From assembly GCF_901873445.1 (NCBI RefSeq), contig NZ_CABFLN010000003.1, forward strand, positions 1 to 58,902: a stretch of 58,902 bases of DNA, read 5' to 3'. The position numbers and the translations under genes were made by a program. Below the pieces are notes generated by a model. That model saw nothing but the letters and a program-made list of their open reading frames with translations. It ran no database searches and was not told the DNA's origin. This stretch comes from Gemella haemolysans (lineage in GTDB: Bacteria > Bacillota > Bacilli > Staphylococcales > Gemellaceae). Shown piece after piece: positions 3,429 to 14,217 of this stretch (its first letter is position 1; each line of letters opens with the position of its first letter).

Positions 3429-3537
3429 AATCAGCTTAATAGGCACGTAGAAAAAACAAATATCTTAGTCAAGGGTTTAAACAAAGTATCCCTTGACTAA
3501 CGGTGGAGGTTTTTTCTATACTTTGCCTATGCTGATT
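3429..3537. repeat. Long nested palindrome at the 3' end of the IS30 remnant
   Basis: Four arm pairs nest inside each other: AATCAGC/GCTGATT, ATAGGCA/TGCCTAT, TAGAAAAAAC/GTTTTTTCTA and TTAGTCAAGGG/CCCTTGACTAA (3465-3475 with 3490-3500). Together they give about 35 base pairs around a 14-base loop. The right arm contains the last codons of the transposase remnant. It could be an insertion-sequence end, a MITE or a strong terminator. Confidence 0.7.
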
Positions 3538-4595
3538 GTTTTATTATCACTCTAGCTTCTTTATCAAAAGCTTCATTGGCTCTTTGATAACCTAGTATTT
3601 TTCTAGGGAGATTATTTATTCTATCTACTATATTCTCAATGTATTGTCTATTATAATCATCTATAGACGTACCTTTTGGTATAAACTGTCTTATTAATTT
3701 ATTAAAATTCTCATTCTCGCCTCTTTCGAAGGCTGAATATAGGTGTGCGAAATATACTTCTACCACGTTTGAAAAGTATTTACTTAATGTTGAAAATTCA
3801 GATCCGTTATCTTCTGTTATAGATTTTATAATACCTTTTTGATATTCTTCCATTATTTTATTTAATACATATGTAACAGATTCACTGTCTTTAAAATCTA
3901 TTAATACTACGATTCCTTTTCTTGTTTTTCTTTCTGTTAAGGTTAGTAAACATGTACTTTCTCCTTTTTTCATGTACTGTATCTATTTCAAAATGACCAA
4001 ATTCTTCACGCTTATCAATATGGTTTGGTCTTTCATCTATACTAATACCTAAGATTTTTTTATTCTCCTTTGGGTTTGTTTTGCATTTTTCACGTCCCAA
4101 TTTCTCTTTCAGATTTATATTTTTAACTTTAAGTCTACCTTCATCTATATAACGATAAAGCGTATTTACGCACACTACTTCTTCTTTTGTGAATAATCCC
4201 TCTATCAATGCTCATCCTATAACTACATCAGGTGATAGTTTATCTTCTAAAATCAATTTTTCTGCATATTCTATGAACTCTTTAACCTTGTTAAACTTTG
4301 ATTTATTGCGACTATTCATTCTATTTGTTTCATACACACATTGATCGTAGACTGGGCTATACTCCTCTTTATATTTAACTTTACTATTAACCTTTTGTTT
4401 AGTTCTAACTGTTCCTCTTTTGATTTCATTGAGTACTGTTTGTGGTGATACTCCCAGTATTTTTACCATAGTTCGTTTTGGCACAAAAGGTAGCTTTTTC
4501 TTCTTGCATTTCTCAGCTTCTTTAATCAAGTTAAATAAAATTCTTCGCGTTGCGAATATTAGATGTTTACTTTCTTTGTATTTTCTTGTAAAATT
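3527..4595 (-). pseudogene. IS30-family transposase, broken
   Basis: Three consecutive pieces together give an IS30-type transposase: an N-terminal helix-turn-helix (LGVSPQTVLNEIKRG) after 4529, a middle part with the first catalytic Asp (FGHFEIDTV), and a C-terminal part with the second Asp (DNGSEF) and Glu (ERGENEN). An in-frame TGA sits at about 4212-4214 between the first two pieces. A frameshift in a purine-rich run near 3955-3973 separates the last two. In-frame sequence continues upstream to about 4595 without a good start codon. It cannot make an active enzyme. A second, inverted and internally deleted relative lies at 14385-14895. Confidence 0.85.
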
Positions 4596-6133: not shown

Positions 6134-6742
6134 CTATTCTCTATTTTTATTATTTTCTGTATTTTCTGTCGGATTAGAGACTATCTTCTCTACGCTGTTA
6201 TCTTCAAAAATATCTACAGTCCATCCTACTAGGCTTCCATCTTTCGCCGTTACCTTACTTATAGAAAATTGTCTAGGTCTTTTATCTCCTTCAGTTAACT
6301 TCTTAACCTCTTGTTTTCCAAAATCTAAAGCTTCTTTTTGGGAATTAAATACTTTACCAGTCGTACCAACACCTTCTGATTCTGATAGTTTTTTCCCTTT
6401 ATAATCTTGTACTCTATTATTTTTTTGAGATACATTATCGCTATTTTTTATTATATTTTTTTCTTTGTTTTGTATAACTTTATTATTAGATTCGCTATCT
6501 TTATTTTCTGATTTTTGTTCTTCTTTTATCTCTGTAGACTGATTATTATCTTCATCACGATTGTTATCTTTACTATTTTTATCTTGTTCTATCTGTTCTT
6601 GTTTATTTTCACTTTGTGATGAATCTTTCTTCTGAACAGATTCCTCCTTACCAAAATAACTAATTGTTAAAAAAATAATAATCGCAATAATACAGGATAA
6701 ACCGCTATATAGCATAATCTTAGTGGTTTTATTTTTTTTCAT
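6134..6742 (-). CDS. Membrane-anchored protein with disordered linker, function unknown
   Basis: I do not recognise this protein. It has a short basic cytoplasmic start (MKKNKTTK), one membrane segment at about residues 10-30, a long Lys/Glu/Asn/Ser-rich linker, and a compact C-terminal part of about 75 residues with VFNSQKEALDFGKQEV and GWTVDIFED. The topology puts the C-terminal domain outside the cell. ATG at 6742 is chosen because GAGG lies 11 bases upstream; an in-frame ATG at 6763 has no ribosome site. The next gene upstream (6885) has the same architecture, and its tail also carries an AxxYAxxE-like segment, so the two may be distant paralogues. Confidence 0.65.
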   Translation of the reverse strand: MKKNKTTKIMLYSGLSCIIAIIIFLTISYFGKEESVQKKDSSQSENKQEQIEQDKNSKDNNRDEDNNQSTEIKEEQKSENKDSESNNKVIQNKEKNIIKNSDNVSQKNNRVQDYKGKKLSESEGVGTTGKVFNSQKEALDFGKQEVKKLTEGDKRPRQFSISKVTAKDGSLVGWTVDIFEDNSVEKIVSNPTENTENNKNRE

Positions 6743-6835
6743 AATTTCTATATCCTCTTTCATACTTACTCTATATTATACCACTTATCATAGTATTTTG
6801 CTAAAATAAAAAGATATTTATTCTCTCTTTTTTAC

Positions 6836-6884: not shown

Positions 6885-7460
6885 CTAACCTTCTTTAATA
6901 TTTACAACAAATTCACCTTTGTTATTTCTGTCTACAGTATAACTATAGTGTTTTTTATTTTCTTTTGCTAATCTAGCTATTTCATCATTAGCATATTTTT
7001 TAGCATCAGCTGAACTTCCATATGTTCCTTGTGATGATGTGTTACTAGAAGATGAACTATTATCTTTATTATCAGTGTTTGCTTCTTCTTTCTTAGAAGC
7101 AGTATTATTACTATTTGAAGCTGTGTTACTGTTACTAGTTGTTCTATTACTTACAGCTCTGTTATTATCACTTGACTTATTGCTTTCTGATTTAGAAGAG
7201 CTTGAAGATGATGAACTATTGCCATCATTAGAATCTTTACTTTCTCTATATTTCTCCTCATCACTTTTCTCTTTTGATTTAGACTTAGAGTCATCTTTGT
7301 CTTTAGTTTTTGATGAAGATACATCTGTAGTATCATTATCCTTTTTCTTACTTAAACTATCTCCACCTGTAAAATAACTTATCCCTATGAATAACGCACT
7401 ACATAAGAATATAGCTAATACTATACCCCATAATACTTTCAACAATCTATTATCTTTCAT
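6885..7460 (-). CDS. Membrane-anchored Ser/Asn/Lys-rich protein, function unknown
   Basis: This 191-residue protein has one N-terminal membrane segment (about residues 8-28), then about 120 residues of almost pure Ser, Asn, Asp and Lys. It ends in a short conserved-looking tail (SSADAKKYANDEIARLAKENKKHYSYTV, given here only as key parts AKKYAND and NKKHYSY). The ribosome site AAGGAGGGG stands at the right distance before ATG. The low-complexity linker would span the wall and display the tail. It resembles the neighbouring 6134 gene in layout. No known domain is recognised. Confidence 0.65.
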   Translation of the reverse strand: MKDNRLLKVLWGIVLAIFLCSALFIGISYFTGGDSLSKKKDNDTTDVSSSKTKDKDDSKSKSKEKSDEEKYRESKDSNDGNSSSSSSSSKSESNKSSDNNRAVSNRTTSNSNTASNSNNTASKKEEANTDNKDNSSSSSNTSSQGTYGSSADAKKYANDEIARLAKENKKHYSYTVDRNNKGEFVVNIKEG

Positions 7461-7596: not shown

Positions 7597-7640
7597 TTTT
7601 GACAAACTATAACTAATTAATTCGTTATATATAGTGTCAG
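7597..7640 (+). promoter_or_regulatory. Candidate promoter of the DUF1659-lysin cassette
   Basis: TTGACA at about 7599 is followed, about 20 bases later, by TTATAT/TATATA. The spacing is longer than ideal. The inverted pair TATAAC and GTTATA lies across the spacer and could be an operator. Confidence 0.35.
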
Positions 7641-7683
7641 AGGCCAAAGACAAATAATAAACAATTACAAAGGAGATTTGAAA

Positions 7684-7878
7684 ATGAAAATATTAAAAAA
7701 AGTTTTACATTTAAACTATAGCGAAGAGAAAAACCAAAAACAAGTTGGTAAAAGTTATAACTTTGAGGTTGCTACAAACGCTGAAGATAACACTTTAAAA
7801 GAAGTAGGAGAAGAATTAAAAAAACTTATCGATAAAAATATCGATACTATTACTACTAACACTAAAGAATCACTATAA
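7684..7878 (+). CDS. DUF1659-family small protein
   Basis: The 64-residue product (MKILKKVLHLNYSEE...) fits DUF1659, a family of short soluble proteins that in Bacilli is usually paired with DUF2922 and YvrJ, as here. ATG at 7684 is preferred over TTG at 7678 because AAAGGAG ends 8 bases before the ATG. It is the first gene of a four-gene same-strand cassette, with 20 bases to the next. Its function is unknown. The conserved pairing suggests that the products act together. Confidence 0.7.
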   Translation: MKILKKVLHLNYSEEKNQKQVGKSYNFEVATNAEDNTLKEVGEELKKLIDKNIDTITTNTKESL

Positions 7879-7898
7879 TTTAGGAGGAAACACATATC

Positions 7899-8111
7899 AT
7901 GGAGAAAAAATTAAATATTTATTTTAATACGGAGAATAAAAAAACTTATCACATCGCTTTATCACATCCAAAAGAAAACTTAAGTAAAGATACTGTTGAG
8001 GCTGTTGCTCAAAAAATTGTTGATACAAAAGTATTTAACAACGAAAAACATACCCTTACAGGTTTCAAAAAAGCTACTTACGTTACACGTGAAGCAAGCG
8101 AACTTCAATAA
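7899..8111 (+). CDS. DUF2922-family small protein
   Basis: The 70-residue product has the DUF2922 pattern: an N-terminal strand-forming stretch, a HPKENLSKDTVEAVAQKI-type central block, and a C-terminal (V)TREASEL end that resembles the family's VxREV tail. GGAGG lies upstream of ATG. Its place between DUF1659 and YvrJ is the canonical order. The molecular function is not known. Confidence 0.8.
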   Translation: MEKKLNIYFNTENKKTYHIALSHPKENLSKDTVEAVAQKIVDTKVFNNEKHTLTGFKKATYVTREASELQ

Positions 8112-8126
8112 TAGAAGGGAGGGAGG

Positions 8127-8150
8127 TGCGGTTAATTCCGCACCTTTTTT
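8127..8150 (+). terminator. Intrinsic-terminator hairpin abutting the yvrJ start codon
   Basis: AGGTGCGG and CCGCACCT form a perfect 8-bp GC-rich stem with a 6-base loop, followed by seven T and then directly ATG at 8152. It may end most transcripts after DUF2922. In read-through transcripts it would fold between the GGGAGGGAGG ribosome site and the ATG. Confidence 0.8.
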
Positions 8151-8151
8151 T

Positions 8152-8313
8152 ATGGATATATTAAATTTCATTAATACTGTAGGTTTTCCTATTTTTGTTG
8201 CAGTATTCTTTTTATTAAAATTAGACAATACTCTACAAAATATAGGAAAAAATTTAAATGAACTTACTCGTATTATCGAAACAAAATTAAATCTAGATAT
8301 TAGCAATAAATAA
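8152..8313 (+). CDS. YvrJ-family holin-like membrane peptide
   Basis: The 53-residue product has one hydrophobic segment (about residues 7-23, VGFPIFVAVFFLLKL) followed by a charged amphipathic tail, which is the YvrJ family pattern and resembles BhlA/UviB holin-like peptides. ATG at 8152 gives the family's usual length; longer readings of the frame run back through DUF2922. The ribosome site GGGAGGGAGG is 26 bases upstream, but a stable hairpin between them would bring it near the ATG. A CHAP lysin follows 24 bases later, so a membrane-permeabilising role is plausible but inferred. Confidence 0.75.
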   Translation: MDILNFINTVGFPIFVAVFFLLKLDNTLQNIGKNLNELTRIIETKLNLDISNK

Positions 8314-8337
8314 TACTAACAAAAGGGAGTAAATATT

Positions 8338-9012
8338 ATGACAAGTCAACAAACAATGGTAAATTGGGCTAAAGATAATGTATATAAATGGATTGATATG
8401 GATGGTATGTATGGTGCACAGTGCGTCGATCTTACTATGGCCTATGTAAAAAACTTTGCAAACTTTCAAATATACGGTAACGCTATAGATTATCTAACTA
8501 ACTCTATACCTCCTGGGTGGAAAAGATACTATAAAGGGGAGGCAGAAATAGCTCCTGGAGATATAGCAATCTGGCATTGGGGAAGTTGGGATAAATATGG
8601 ACATGTAGGAATAGTCATTGAGGTAAACGGTAGTACTATTACCTCTGTAGAACAAAATGTTGATGGTACTCCAGAACGTGGAGGTATCGCTCGTATCATG
8701 AACCGTGATGATACTTATCTAGTTGGATTCATAAGACCTAGCTATGATTCTAGTGAAGAATGGACTAGAATCTCCGAAAATGGGCAGTTCATAGTAGAGG
8801 TTCCTTCAATAAATGTCAGAGTTAAACCAAGCAAACTAGGGAAAATCGTTAGCGTCTATCACAAAGGCGAACGAGTCTTTTATGATAGCTATGTAATTAA
8901 AGAAGGATTTGTTTGGATTAGTTATGTCTCATATTCGGGCGAACGCCACTATATGGCTATTGGAACTCATAACGGTTCGCAACGAACTAGCTGTTGGGGA
9001 GATTTTGAGTAG
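8338..9012 (+). CDS. CHAP-SH3 endolysin-like cell-wall hydrolase
   Basis: The 224-residue product has an N-terminal CHAP domain with the catalytic Cys29 (QCVDL), His89 (YGHVGIV) and a following Glu105/Asn107 (VEQNVDG). Such enzymes cut peptidoglycan as amidases or endopeptidases. Residues about 145-215 form a bacterial SH3 (SH3_5) wall-binding domain. There is no signal peptide, as in phage endolysins that rely on a holin; the YvrJ-type peptide just upstream could play that part. AGGGAG precedes ATG. No other phage genes are present, so it is either a domesticated lysis module or a bacteriocin-like one. Confidence 0.85.
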   Translation: MTSQQTMVNWAKDNVYKWIDMDGMYGAQCVDLTMAYVKNFANFQIYGNAIDYLTNSIPPGWKRYYKGEAEIAPGDIAIWHWGSWDKYGHVGIVIEVNGSTITSVEQNVDGTPERGGIARIMNRDDTYLVGFIRPSYDSSEEWTRISENGQFIVEVPSINVRVKPSKLGKIVSVYHKGERVFYDSYVIKEGFVWISYVSYSGERHYMAIGTHNGSQRTSCWGDFE

Positions 9013-9102
9013 TGACGACTAATTTGCTATACTAAGAGAAACTAATCAAAAATCCTGTAACTAAGCAAATCAAACCAATTAAAATAACTTATCAAAAAAA
9101 TT

Positions 9103-9159
9103 GGGGGTGACTCAAAAATCATGATTTCAAAAAAAACAAGATTTTGTCGAGTCATCCCC
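9103..9159. repeat. Dispersed hairpin repeat, copy 2
   Basis: GGGGGTGACTC (from 9103) pairs with GAGTCATCCCC (9149-9159). The left flank ATAACTTATCAAAAAA is shared with the copy at 12680. It lies 90 bases after the lysin gene and may serve as its terminator. The remaining 9160-9540 is AT-rich without a clear gene. Confidence 0.8.
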
Positions 9160-9593: not shown

Positions 9594-9627
9594 ATAGCTA
9601 AACTTTATGCTGAAAGGTGAAAAATTT

Positions 9628-12591
9628 ATGCGTAACATAGAACAATATAAAAATACAATATATACAATAAGAAAACTCAGCGTAGGGACCGCTTCTATCG
9701 CTATCGCTTCTATAATGTTTTTAGGAGGAAATGCTTTAGCCAGCGAAGATAACAACACCACTAGAGATAATAGCGTTACCGTCACTCCTGCTAATAATTC
9801 TCCACAAGCCGATAACATTTCATCGGCAACACCCAATGATGAAAAGTCAGCGTCGGATGTTCACGATAATACAGACTTGAAGAATAATACGAACGAACAA
9901 ACTACTAACGCCGTTACCAACAACAATGAGCTAACGACATCGAAAGAAAAATCAGAAAATACTAGAACTAACATCGATAATACAACATCAGCATCTAACT
10001 CTGAACAGCCGGCTGATAGTTCTAACACACATAAACCTAGAAGAAAAAGAGACACTTCCTCTCAACCAGAAAACAATAACGAAACCAAAACTCTTCATAA
10101 TATTTCGGAAAAAACAAACAAGAATCCTATCCAAGGTAAAGAATTTAACGGAGAATATGGATTTTATCTTACAGCAAATGATAAAAATGGAAAAAAATAT
10201 TCATCTACATATGGAGGATACTCTTTTCTTAATCTAGATAATCTAGATCCCGAGTCAATCCGTGGTCACTTCGTCCTAAAAAACGGAGATAAAGATATTA
10301 ATTCAAATATAATCTTAACACTACCTAATTATTTTAAAAATGGTACTGCAAATCTAGTATTTGACAAAGAAAACATTGATTCTAAAGATGGTATTGCTGT
10401 TAAGAGTAAATTAGGAGAAGATTATTCTGGACAAATGAGATACGGTAATGCTAATGGTGAATATCGACCACTAGCAGACTATCTTCAAACTTATGGCAAC
10501 GCTGCTTTTGGAGAACAATTAAGAGCTATTCGTTTAGAGAGTGGCTCTATAAAAGCTAACGACGAAGTTACTTTCAACTTTAAACTTAAACTACTTAAAC
10601 CAAGTACCGAGATTAACCGTGACCTTAATACATTTTCTATCTATAATTTCATTAACGGACACAACGGTTATGTTACCGATAATCTAAATCTAGCTATGAT
10701 TCATCACTCTGATATTAATACAGGTGAGCACATCGGTAAATATGTTTATCCTGTTTATCGTAAAGAGGTTGATGTTGATGGAGGTTCTAATTGGGTTTAT
10801 GTACCTGAACTACAAGAACTTATACCTACATCAAACGAAATATTTAGATTCGGAAGAAAAGATAATAATACTAGGCCTGAGTCATCAATCCAAGCCGAAG
10901 AAGATGCAAAAGGATTCTATGTCGTTAAATCACAAGATCCAGATTTAGTACCTTATCCTAATTTAAGCCCTTACTACTTCCTTCTATTGGATAAAGCACA
11001 AAAAAACATTTCTAAACACGGGTATTCTGTCAATCCAGATCGTATTGATGCAAACTTTTACATCTACGGAGGTCGCAATGGAATAAAAATAGAAAATAAT
11101 GGCAGCGTTGACTCTGATAGAGAAGCTTTAGCTAAAGAAGGAGCAAAATTTCTTCACTTCCAAGTAGTGCCATCAATATTACTAAAAGAAAAGCAAATTT
11201 TTACAGCATCTCCTGATGGTGGCAGCTGGGATCCTAAAACCCTGGTAACACAATTTACAGATCCACGCACTGTTAAATGGCTAGTTTCAGAAGATGATTC
11301 ACGCCAATTAGATAAAAATAAACTTAATTTGAAAATAACTAACGTTACACCCGGCGTTCCAGCGACGACTGTTTCTGAGGTGTCACTAGCGAAACCTGGA
11401 AAATATAAAATTGAATATAGTTATAATTTTGGAACTACTGAAAAACCACTATCAATATCGAATACAGGTTATGTTGATGTTGTTTCTGACTATCAACAAG
11501 TTAATATCCGCGTACTAGATGACACAACAAATACAACTTTATCTGATGGAAAAGTCTACTCTGGAAAATCTAATGAAGTTCTTAATGAAACAACTAAAGA
11601 AAACATGAAAACTTCTTTAGATAATATCAAAAAAACTTACCTTGATAAAGGATATAAATTGGTTTCTGAACCTCTATTACCTTCAAAATTAGACGATACA
11701 GAGAACTTTTCAGCAAACACTGATAACAACATACAATATGTTGATGTACACCTAGTTCACGATACTCGTGTCGAAACAGAATATAAAGAATCAAAACAAA
11801 TAATCCACTATAGTGGGGCTGGAGATAAAACTCCCGTTGATAAAGTCACTACCGATGATAAGACGTTTTCTCGTGAAGTCACTTATGATAAGGTAACTAA
11901 CAAAGTCATAGGTTCCCCTACTGCATGGAGTGGAGCAAAAACATATTCCGCTGTAACGACTCCTGTTATTAAAGGGTACTCTTCTGATAAAGCCGAAGCT
12001 GGTTTTGGGCAAGTTATTCCAGATAATCCTACGATAGAAGTAACAGTTTCTTACTCTAGAATCCCAGAGACTGTCTCTAAAGTTAGTAAAACTGTTTCTA
12101 GAATTATTAATGTGACTTATCCTGACGGTAAAATGGAAACTATTACTCAAACTGTGACTTTCACTAGAGATAAGACTGTTAACTCTGAAACTGATGCGGT
12201 TACTTTTGGTGCTTGGAGCAAAGATGGTAAGCATACTTTTGAGACTTTTTCTCCTAAGGATATCAAGGGATTCTCTCCTTCTGGGGCTGTAGACGCTGTT
12301 GTCGTATCTCCTGACAGTGAAGATATATTTATAAATATTACCTACCACAAAACACCTGATGTTATAAATCCTGATAACAATAATAACAACAATAACAATA
12401 ACAAAAACAATAACAATAATAAAAACCCAGGAAACCTAAATAAAGTTATCGATAGTAAATCCCAAACTACTCCAAAAGTTAAAATCCTAGCCAAAACAGG
12501 TATAAATTATAACAATACCGAGTTGCTAATAACTTTATTATTTGAGTTACTTATATTAATGGTAATTCTCTTCCCAAGAAAAATAAAATAA
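9628..12591 (+). CDS. YSIRK-type LPXTG-like cell-wall adhesin with Muc_B2-like repeats
   Basis: The 987-residue product begins with a YSIRK-like signal (YTIRKLSVGTASIAIAS, about residues 12-30), which directs secretion at the division septum. A Ser/Thr/Asn-rich stretch ending in PRRKRD is followed by a beta-rich region of about 450 residues without a named domain. From about residue 690 two or more repeats resemble mucin-binding B2-type modules (QIIHYSG...KVT, RIINVTY...). An Asn-run linker and the sorting signal complete it: LAKTG, a hydrophobic segment and RKIK. The canonical LPXTG Pro is replaced by Ala. ATG at 9628 is chosen for its AAAGGTGA site; an ATG at 9607 has none. Confidence 0.85.
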   Translation: MRNIEQYKNTIYTIRKLSVGTASIAIASIMFLGGNALASEDNNTTRDNSVTVTPANNSPQADNISSATPNDEKSASDVHDNTDLKNNTNEQTTNAVTNNNELTTSKEKSENTRTNIDNTTSASNSEQPADSSNTHKPRRKRDTSSQPENNNETKTLHNISEKTNKNPIQGKEFNGEYGFYLTANDKNGKKYSSTYGGYSFLNLDNLDPESIRGHFVLKNGDKDINSNIILTLPNYFKNGTANLVFDKENIDSKDGIAVKSKLGEDYSGQMRYGNANGEYRPLADYLQTYGNAAFGEQLRAIRLESGSIKANDEVTFNFKLKLLKPSTEINRDLNTFSIYNFINGHNGYVTDNLNLAMIHHSDINTGEHIGKYVYPVYRKEVDVDGGSNWVYVPELQELIPTSNEIFRFGRKDNNTRPESSIQAEEDAKGFYVVKSQDPDLVPYPNLSPYYFLLLDKAQKNISKHGYSVNPDRIDANFYIYGGRNGIKIENNGSVDSDREALAKEGAKFLHFQVVPSILLKEKQIFTASPDGGSWDPKTLVTQFTDPRTVKWLVSEDDSRQLDKNKLNLKITNVTPGVPATTVSEVSLAKPGKYKIEYSYNFGTTEKPLSISNTGYVDVVSDYQQVNIRVLDDTTNTTLSDGKVYSGKSNEVLNETTKENMKTSLDNIKKTYLDKGYKLVSEPLLPSKLDDTENFSANTDNNIQYVDVHLVHDTRVETEYKESKQIIHYSGAGDKTPVDKVTTDDKTFSREVTYDKVTNKVIGSPTAWSGAKTYSAVTTPVIKGYSSDKAEAGFGQVIPDNPTIEVTVSYSRIPETVSKVSKTVSRIINVTYPDGKMETITQTVTFTRDKTVNSETDAVTFGAWSKDGKHTFETFSPKDIKGFSPSGAVDAVVVSPDSEDIFINITYHKTPDVINPDNNNNNNNNNKNNNNNKNPGNLNKVIDSKSQTTPKVKILAKTGINYNNTELLITLLFELLILMVILFPRKIK

Positions 12592-12718: not shown

Positions 12719-12956
12719 TGTGCCCCTTTTACTGGACAATCCAGTGAAAGGGGTGTTTTTTATGCGTTATAATTATGAATTTAAAATAAAATGTGTTGAG
12801 TTGTATGAAAGAGGAGAATATCTAGATACACCTAATGGAATAACCACTAGAAAATTTAGAGATACTATTAGGAAATGGAAAAGAATGGTCGATTCATTAG
12901 ACGTAGGCGTCTTAAGACATAAAACGAAAAATAAGAAGTTGAAAATGATAAAATAA
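12719..12956 (+). pseudogene. IS3-family OrfA remnant
   Basis: An inverted repeat at about 12722-12756 (CCCCTTTTACTGGA with TCCAGTGAAAGGGG, one mismatch) marks the element's end. ATG at 12762 opens a 64-codon fragment starting MRYNYEFKIKCVELYERGEY, resembling the helix-turn-helix N-terminus of IS3-family OrfA proteins. It stops prematurely after a lysine-rich tail, and no matching OrfB follows. It is a decayed fragment interrupting hairpin repeat copy 4. Confidence 0.65.
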
Positions 12957-13030
12957 GAATGTATAGTTTTGACAAAATAAAAATGTATTAGGCTATAATA
13001 CTGCATATAATAAAGAAAGAGAGAAATATA

Positions 13031-14217
13031 TGTTGGAGTTATACTAAAAAAGTAGACACAGAAAGGAAGTGTTTAAAACGGCAAAAAATGTCTACGATGA
13101 AGATTTTAAAAGATTAATTGTTAGTCTATACCAAAATAGTAAGACTCAAACACAACTAAGTAAAGATTATGGTATTTCTTTAAGTGCCATTAATAAATGG
13201 GTGAAACAGTATTCTGAGATTAAAACTGAAGATGGCGATGTGTTTACCGCTAAACAAATAAAAGAACTTCAAAAACGAAACGCTCAATTAGAAGAAGAAA
13301 ATCAAATTTTAAAAAAGGCGATTGCCATCTTCACGCCACACTCAAACAAAGATTAAACGCTATTTTCACCCTTAGAAATCAACATAATATTAAACTTTTA
13401 TGCAAAGTATTCAATGTTAATAGAAGCACATACTATAAATATATCTCAAATGATTTACCTCCTAAAATTGAAGAAAATCAAATGATTTCTAGAGTTATTT
13501 TAAAAATTCATGGAAACTAAGATAAGCGACTTGGTGCATATAAAATAACTCATATTTTGGAACGTGATTATGGTATTAAAGTTAGTGTTGGAAGAGTATA
13601 TCGATTAATTCAAAAATTAAATCTCCCTACTATGTCTACTTCTAAACCTTTTATCAAAGCGAGTAAAAAAAACTGTGAGGATACTAAGTTATGTAACCAC
13701 TTAAAACAAGAATTTAATCCTCCTAAGCCTAATATGGTTTGGGCTAACGATTTTACTTATATAAAAGTAAATGGTGTTTGGTTTTATTTGTGTATAATTA
13801 TGGATTTATTTTCTAGAAAAATTATATCGTGGAATATTTCCAATAAAGCTGATTCTAACCTTATTATGAGCACATTTAATGACGCTTATAATAAAAGAAA
13901 TTGTCCTACTGGTCTTATGTTTCATTCTGACCGTGGTACTCAGTATACAGCAGCCCCCTTTAGAAAACTCCTGGATAAATTTAACGTAGTTTAATCTTTT
14001 TCTAAAAAAGGATATCCTTTCAATAATACTTGTTGTGAGTCTTTCTTTAAATATTTAAAGAAAGAGGAGTTGAATAGGAAAAATCATCACTCAATTGGAG
14101 AATTAAAACTTTCTTTATTTGAGTATATTGAGGGATTTTATAATCTTAAAAGACCACATTATTCATTAGGTTTTATGACTTCTAACGAGAAAGAATTAGC
14201 ATTTTATAAACATTAAA
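13031..14217 (+). pseudogene. IS3-family (IS150-like) element, OrfB broken by two stops
   Basis: OrfA (13069-13356, GTG start) is intact with a helix-turn-helix and a leucine-zipper-like C-terminus. A slippery A AAA AAG at about 13311-13317 is in place for the usual -1 frameshift into OrfB. OrfB carries the DDE integrase core (WANDFTYIKV, MFHSDRGTQYT) and the C-terminal ESFFKYLKKEE block, but has in-frame TAA codons near 13518 and at 13992-13994, the latter probably from CAA. The element is inactive unless rescued in trans. TTGACA (12969) and TATAAT (12994) upstream are 19 bases apart. Confidence 0.8.

Follow-up and report, generated by a model that had tools for sequence, protein, structure and literature searches.

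A DUF1659-DUF2922-YvrJ operon coupled to a phage-like endolysin gene in Gemella: a candidate stress-controlled holin-lysin cassette

Genes of the cassette and their surroundings

The window analysed here, a stretch of 58,902 nucleotides of Gemella haemolysans DNA (contig NZ_CABFLN010000003.1), contains a compact group of four genes on one strand between positions 7684 and 9012 (Table 1); the open reading frames and the Pfam matches agree with the initial annotation on this arrangement. The DUF1659 match of the first product is marginal (24.9 bits against a cut-off of 24.1), and the three that follow are a DUF2922 protein (70.7 bits), a YvrJ peptide (PF12841, 32.6 bits against a cut-off of 29.5) and a hydrolase with CHAP (55.8 bits) and SH3_5 (51.7 bits) domains. 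Among the PHROGs, YvrJ matches a holin family (1.2e-10), the hydrolase matches an endolysin family (1.2e-44), and DUF2922 weakly matches one phage family of unknown function (2.6e-5). As read from the sequence, YvrJ has a single hydrophobic span followed by a charged tail, and the N-terminus of the lysin shows no hydrophobic segment of the signal type, in keeping with the earlier description of a CHAP-SH3 lysin lacking a signal peptide. Also as first described, no phage structural genes were recognised beside the cassette in the window's list of open reading frames.

Table 1. Features of the cassette and its upstream region, in window coordinates
Feature	Position	Strand	Description
-35-like element GACAAA	7601..7606	+	16 nt 5' of the -10-like box; GRGAAA in several relatives
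-10-like box CGTTATATATAG	7623..7634	+	Gemellaceae consensus CGATATATWTAR; not sigma-A-like
Conserved leader element GTCAGAGGCCAAAGAC	7636..7651	+	At presumed transcription start
DUF1659 protein (SroA-type)	7684..7878	+	64 aa; Pfam DUF1659
DUF2922 protein (putatively SroB-type, from gene order)	7899..8111	+	70 aa; Pfam DUF2922
Shine-Dalgarno AAGGGAGG of YvrJ	8115..8122	+	29 nt before ATG
Hairpin core AGGTGCGG-TTAATT-CCGCACCT	8124..8145	+	Between Shine-Dalgarno and ATG; T-tract to 8151, terminator-like
YvrJ holin-like peptide	8152..8313	+	53 aa; Pfam YvrJ, PHROGs
CHAP-SH3_5 peptidoglycan hydrolase, no signal peptide visible	8338..9012	+	224 aa; Pfam, PHROGs

Two adjoining minus-strand genes that diverge from the cassette (window 6134-6763 and 6885-7460) encode membrane-anchored Ser/Asn-rich proteins whose C-terminal parts are alike, and a look-alike of these genes lies between a sigma-like and a YebC-like gene in five sister-genus genomes. 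Downstream, window 9607-12591 is a gene for a YSIRK/Muc_B2 surface protein with an LPXTG-like end. An inverted repeat 3' of the lysin gene (window 9102-9158, GGGGGTGACTC...GAGTCATCCCC) is possibly a terminator or a small repeat element, and broken transposase-like frames, found by eye, flank the region within about 4 kb (window 3527-4529 and 12720-13994).

Similarity of the first two genes to sroAB

A DUF1659 profile search retrieved Staphylococcus proteins that NCBI names "sigS mRNA-stabilizing protein SroA", so that a role has been reported for relatives of the first member of a trio initially described as "without a known role". A 2026 preprint (PMC13192611) reports that SigS, a stress sigma factor, directly controls sroAB in S. 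aureus, that sroA is induced under genotoxic conditions, and that SroA and SroB act on sigS expression. In 11 Staphylococcus-like loci DUF1659 is followed by DUF2922, without YvrJ, and by this gene order SroB is probably a DUF2922 protein; the same tandem, which membership in the sroAB group needs, is present in the window by its Pfam matches. Given the SroA naming and the report that sroAB is a SigS target, the two proteins more probably serve in sigma feedback than in the regulation of release; the latter was the role first proposed for them and is at odds with the reported action on sigS expression.

AlphaFold models of DUF1659 (pLDDT 90.5) and DUF2922 (pLDDT 87.9) both have a b-b-a-b fold. 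Although this order is common to the two models, a sequence relationship between the families was not supported (E 0.15), and fold searches with either model gave no PDB match below E 0.08.

Conservation and selection in the Gemellaceae

DUF2922 is present in all 15 Gemellaceae genomes compared, of which G001 is nearest to the window. All nine genomes of the genus to which the window belongs have the lysin gene directly after the trio, so the neighbourhood is indeed kept within Gemella, with a stop after the CHAP part splitting the gene in one of them (G003); in the sister genus it is found 3' of YvrJ in one of six genomes (G010). Across 10 aligned lysins the Cys and His that are putatively catalytic do not vary. 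Median dN/dS values are 0.23 for DUF1659, 0.26 for DUF2922, 0.12 for YvrJ and 0.12 for the lysin (28, 52, 24 and 10 usable pairs, respectively; the G003 lysin, the G007 DUF1659 gene and any pair whose dS was very low or saturated were omitted), which suggests purifying selection on all four genes.

Origins of YvrJ and the lysin

The best 20 of 811 phage records that match the lysin are Streptococcus phage proteins with 36-39% identity over 92-100% of the length, and these relatives, with the PHROGs match, bear out its likeness to phage endolysins. A prophage-like lysin in G007 is 60% identical over the CHAP part and adjoins a different holin and a tail-fibre-like gene. YvrJ was found in two phage records, both of a single Bacillus phage; the gene has an endolysin gene on either side there, and one of the records annotates it as a holin. 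Viral contigs gave three YvrJ relatives and no confirmed lysin relative. Two DUF2922 queries had no match in 50,697 phage records. This absence, together with the phage-like character of the lysin, makes the trio look chromosomal and the lysin phage-derived, as far as sequence comparison can tell. A single origin of all cassette lysins was rejected when a long-branch Gemella prophage lysin was included in the analysis (p 0.0006) and not rejected when it was left out (p 0.105 and 0.24); we therefore do not claim independent recruitment in G010.

Recurrence of the trio and of lysis genes beyond the Gemellaceae

In a sample of 398 genomes of the class, YvrJ was found in 136. We read 122 loci (12 from a search for relatives, 30 from the class sample and 80 picked mainly to spread over genera), one of which had no match to the YvrJ profile used. 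The remaining 121, all outside the Gemellaceae, comprise 81 with DUF2922 and 40 without, and with the window and 15 Gemellaceae the sample holds 97 DUF2922-YvrJ loci, so the description of the trio as recurrent was correct. Among the first two downstream genes, one on the same strand, of at least 100 aa and within 1 kb, is present at 64 of the 81 loci (83 genes). Wall-hydrolase-like members of the 25 downstream families listed (of 71) are Amidase_3 (1 member), SLT_2 (4) and SLT (2); CHAP is not among these 25, and each remaining family has at most one member. The lysin is thus not a general partner of the trio: its conservation beside the trio holds inside Gemella, whereas at most of the remaining trio loci that were read no adjoining wall hydrolase was seen.

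Lysis genes of other kinds do recur in this setting. In a plasmid record of Aerococcus tenax a sigma-70 factor gene stands first, followed by DUF1659, DUF2922 and the gene for a coiled protein, and after these come a Dp-1-type phage holin (103 bits) and a CHAP/CW_7 lysin, so that a holin-lysin pair of other families is found beside DUF1659-DUF2922 there, in support of the proposed link to lysis. The nearest upstream gene has an Amidase_2 match at 4 of 87 DUF1659-DUF2922 loci outside the Gemellaceae (identified by sequence as L121, L133, L140 and L155, in three genomes that belong to one family), and the one of these four that was scanned, at L133, matches phage endolysins. At another locus (L189) a recombinase-like gene and an endolysin-like amidase gene follow YvrJ. 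This recurrence with different enzymes, though rare, is the best argument that the neighbourhood is meaningful.

YvrJ loci without DUF2922, L117 and L172 for example, mostly have a different companion. An RsoA-like protein is encoded at 31 of these 40 loci and at 4 of the 97 with DUF2922 (the profile was seeded from 19 of the 31), and the two RsoA-like proteins scanned both match HTH_16. SigO-RsoA drives yvrJ in B. subtilis according to a review (PMC8103513). Others of the 40 precede an oxalate-decarboxylase-like or subtilase-like gene, as read from the sequence.

A hairpin between the Shine-Dalgarno and the start of YvrJ

The hairpin that follows DUF2922 in the window folds with a z of -4.7 and, once folded, would reduce the distance from the Shine-Dalgarno to the YvrJ start from 29 to 7 nt. 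In eight distinct Gemella sequences (the hairpins of two further genomes are identical to that of the window and stand outside the eight) 98.4% of 64 cells are paired. Of 500 shuffles, 1 equals this pairing level or the covariation score, 55 equal the count of doubly changed pairs (3 of 8) and 297 that of further pair types. Of the 14 Gemellaceae sequences listed, G010 and G015 being excluded because of their long gaps, 12 (two of them with the window's sequence) have the Shine-Dalgarno 5' and the ATG 3' of the hairpin, at 27-39 nt in linear and 5-13 nt in folded form. The other two are G007, with an ordinary Shine-Dalgarno 3' of the hairpin, and G011, where no Shine-Dalgarno was found for YvrJ. 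A conserved hairpin between Shine-Dalgarno and AUG with a functional folded spacing, as a split ribosome binding site demands, is therefore present in 12 of the 14. In T4 genes 25 and 38 such a structure shortens the Shine-Dalgarno to AUG distance from 27 to 11 and from 22 to 5 nt (reported in PMC3014915). The Gemellaceae hairpin resembles these in bridging the two elements and differs in that in Gemella proper it is also terminator-like; its role in translation is predicted from this likeness.

Four sister-genus genomes (G011-G014) keep a hairpin without the T-tract. A terminator scan listed none, which the continuation of the stem into the T-tract probably explains, and the one Rfam match was sub-threshold and outside the cassette. 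In the wider sample, with YvrJ starts picked by script, 72 of the 97 DUF2922-YvrJ loci have a gap of 30-350 nt (24 gaps are shorter and one longer); 58 of these 72 fold with z <= -2 against shuffles, 43 with z <= -3, and 37 have a T-tract by a loose rule.

Promoter and sigma factor

The CGATATATWTAR box and the GTCAGAGGCCAAAGAC leader are recognisable by eye 5' of DUF1659 in the window and in all 15 Gemellaceae genomes. With its GTC extension (CGATATATWTARTGTC) and at most one mismatch, the box occurs at one site per genome in 14 of the 15, each time at the DUF1659 operon, and the copy in G001 has more changes than this; matches with two mismatches are background, to judge from the reversed control. 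The -10 box is common to the Staphylococcus DUF1659 promoter and the -35 is different in Gemella, where it is also unlike that of Bacillaceae DUF1659 promoters. As a genome-wide detector the combined -35/-10 pattern is weak, since it gave 20 matches in 15 Gemellaceae against 11 in the reversed control and 8 of the 20 are DUF1659 promoters, and it was discarded; a shared TCGTT motif was dropped after wider comparison. A scan for sigma-A promoters gave 23 weak matches against 12.5 expected.

Exact CGATATATATAG has 11 sites in 5 of 14 genomes: three before DUF1659 (G002, G024 and G032), six in G017 and two elsewhere. Five of the six in G017 precede coiA-, comGA-, comEA- and two NERD-like genes, and the sixth is inside a coding frame (comGA and the comE locus were fixed by search, and the remaining gene names were read from the sequence). 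These five promoters (L291, L298, L299, L300 and L301) are near-identical, TTAAGAAA-N15/16-CGATATATATAG, a clean competence-type regulon motif. The competence -35 of G017 (AAGAAA) is closer to the Gemella -35 than is that of G017's own DUF1659 promoter. A model built from the five sites was compared with 200 mononucleotide shuffles per sequence, and the DUF1659 promoters of the window and Gemellaceae beat their shuffles at p <= 0.005 in 11 of 16 cases. Each of the 13 Gemellaceae tested has comGA and comEC, and the box is not visible by eye upstream of Gemella comGA (13 genomes) or comEA (6 genomes).

No sigma gene was recognised in the open reading frame list beside the Gemella cassette. Outside the Gemellaceae, the nearest upstream gene has a Sigma70 region 2 match at 7 of 87 DUF1659-DUF2922 loci, and the Aerococcus tenax sigma gene lies directly 5' of DUF1659. 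A sigma-like gene is present in five of six sister-genus genomes, each time before genes for a Ser-rich membrane protein and a YebC-like protein (YebC by reading). A profile of these sigmas scored 27.3 bits with a SigS-like protein of Staphylococcus (G020), which we take to be SigS from its length and neighbour, against 16.6 for the best SigH. A SigH profile finds the same sigmas (19-36 bits), as does a single SigS sequence (8-29 bits), so the lean to SigS, seen in one of the three comparisons, is weak. A search of the nine Gemella g1 genomes with the SigH profile brought up nothing of SigS or SigH type at E < 0.01, and the A. tenax sigma as query gave no Gemella match below 0.1. On the evidence of the promoters and competence genes, the sigma factor for the operon in Gemella may be of the SigS type or of the competence type. 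A competence sigma as sole driver was demoted as a candidate, given the absence of the box at Gemella comGA and comEA and the report of sroAB as a SigS target (PMC13192611).

Comparison with known systems

A literature search by title and the opening of the abstract returned no paper about this cassette, and no expression, lysis or sigma-binding data for it. Besides the split ribosome binding sites of T4, four known systems resemble it in part. In S. aureus sroAB, too, a DUF1659-type gene (SroA) comes before another gene for a small protein, and an alternative sigma factor controls the operon; the differences are that the 11 Staphylococcus-like loci read have no YvrJ and that the -35 is of another kind, and SroB is equated with DUF2922 from gene order only. 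The C. perfringens UviA-UviB-amidase cluster likewise joins an alternative sigma factor, a small holin and an endolysin in one unit (described in PMC9527704), but the Gemella YvrJ matches PF12841 and no BhlA model, and no adjacent sigma or bacteriocin gene was recognised. CrfP and CbpD share the chromosomal CHAP plus SH3 architecture and an alternative-sigma-like promoter; CrfP, however, is described as having a CIN box and, by prediction, a signal peptide (PMC7992943), neither of which is seen in the Gemella cassette, whose box is unlike TACGAATA and whose lysin has YvrJ as an added partner. As in a phage lysis cassette, a holin-like gene lies directly 5' of an endolysin gene whose product retains the CHAP catalytic residues and is, by reading, signal-less, but phage structural genes were not recognised and the pair sits behind stress regulators. 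Phage lysis cassettes, UviA-UviB clusters and fratricins each have a defining feature that was looked for here and not found, and we assign the Gemella cassette to none of these classes; in its working it appears closest to a stress operon driven by a sigma factor, with holin and lysin as its metered output. YvrJ is a candidate membrane-permeabilising holin by its similarity to the PHROG holin family.

Interpretation and alternatives

We regard the locus as a stress operon on the chromosome, akin to sroAB and read by an alternative sigma factor, at the far end of which a holin-like YvrJ and a recruited phage endolysin have been coupled, a reading to which we give a probability of a little under one half (about 0.45). 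It suggests that the cassette lets Gemella open or burst its own cells in a stress response.

An unlikely, though serious, alternative is competence-linked fratricide, in which a sigma factor of the SigH/ComX type would read the operon and the lysin would attack sister cells in the manner of CrfP or CbpD. The G017 competence sites, the fit of the model trained on them to the DUF1659 promoters, the recovery of the sister-genus sigma by the SigH profile and the presence of comGA and comEC throughout the 13 Gemellaceae all point that way, as does CrfP itself, a CHAP plus SH3b protein reported to be under ComX (PMC7992943); they are countered by the box-less comGA and comEA regions of Gemella, the deviant -35 of G017's own DUF1659 promoter, the reported control of sroAB by SigS (PMC13192611) and the signal peptide that CrfP has and the Gemella lysin visibly lacks.

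We think it less probable still that the genes serve non-lytic export, by which YvrJ would pass the lysin through the membrane and a local opening of the wall would let other proteins leave, as in type 10 secretion and the clostridial sigma-holin-amidase clusters. The one-span YvrJ with its charged tail is close to the shape of TpeE as given in a review (PMC9527704), which also describes UviA-UviB clusters that pair sigma factor, holin and amidase, and gating by the hairpin would suggest low, non-lethal levels; yet no cargo gene was recognised, and the YSIRK/LPXTG-type surface protein gene that comes next on the same strand in the window does not hold that place in the listed relatives from Gemella.

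Finally, a chance neighbourhood, with the hairpin an ordinary terminator of the DUF operon and YvrJ-lysin a separate and seldom used phage leftover, would accord with the hairpins and T-tracts after DUF2922 in many Bacilli, the lysin-free majority of trio loci and the resemblance to Gemella prophage and Streptococcus phage lysins, but is improbable in view of the purifying selection on YvrJ and lysin, the 9 of 9 retention in Gemella, the lack of recognised phage genes beside the cassette, the position of the hairpin inside the YvrJ ribosome site, its retention without a T-tract in G011-G014 and the recurrence in Aerococcus.

The stress operon remains our preferred reading, and its working could be as follows. 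Stress would activate a sigma factor, in Gemella presumably of the SigS type, that reads the CGATATATWTAR promoter and yields the DUF1659 and DUF2922 regulators in quantity. The terminator-like hairpin after DUF2922 would stop part of the transcripts, and in those that read through it would bring the Shine-Dalgarno to the YvrJ start, giving low, gated synthesis of YvrJ and lysin. YvrJ may then open the membrane to the signal-less lysin, which would cut the wall and release the contents of some cells. This scheme builds on the gene content, conservation, selection, conserved promoter elements and hairpin, and the recurrence of holin or lysin genes near DUF1659-DUF2922 observed here, and on SigS control of sroAB in S. 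aureus as taken from the literature. More speculatively, and in our opinion doubtful as a whole, DUF1659-DUF2922-YvrJ might be a widespread output module of SigS/SigO-type circuits in Bacilli, built for coupling to the opening of membrane and wall, into which Gemella and Aerococcus independently plugged phage lysins, with the Gemella hairpin acting both as terminator and as ribosome-site bridge and stress leading to metered self-lysis without a phage.

If the stress operon reading is correct, it would connect lysis genes with the YvrJ family and with the stress-regulator pair of S. aureus (SroA/SroB), and YvrJ would gain a testable role. The hairpin is a bacterial candidate for a terminator-like structure within a ribosome binding site, for which T4 genes 25 and 38 are a precedent without the terminator feature, and the cassette as a whole is a candidate for programmed lysis under a sigma factor in a setting that is neither phage nor clostridial.
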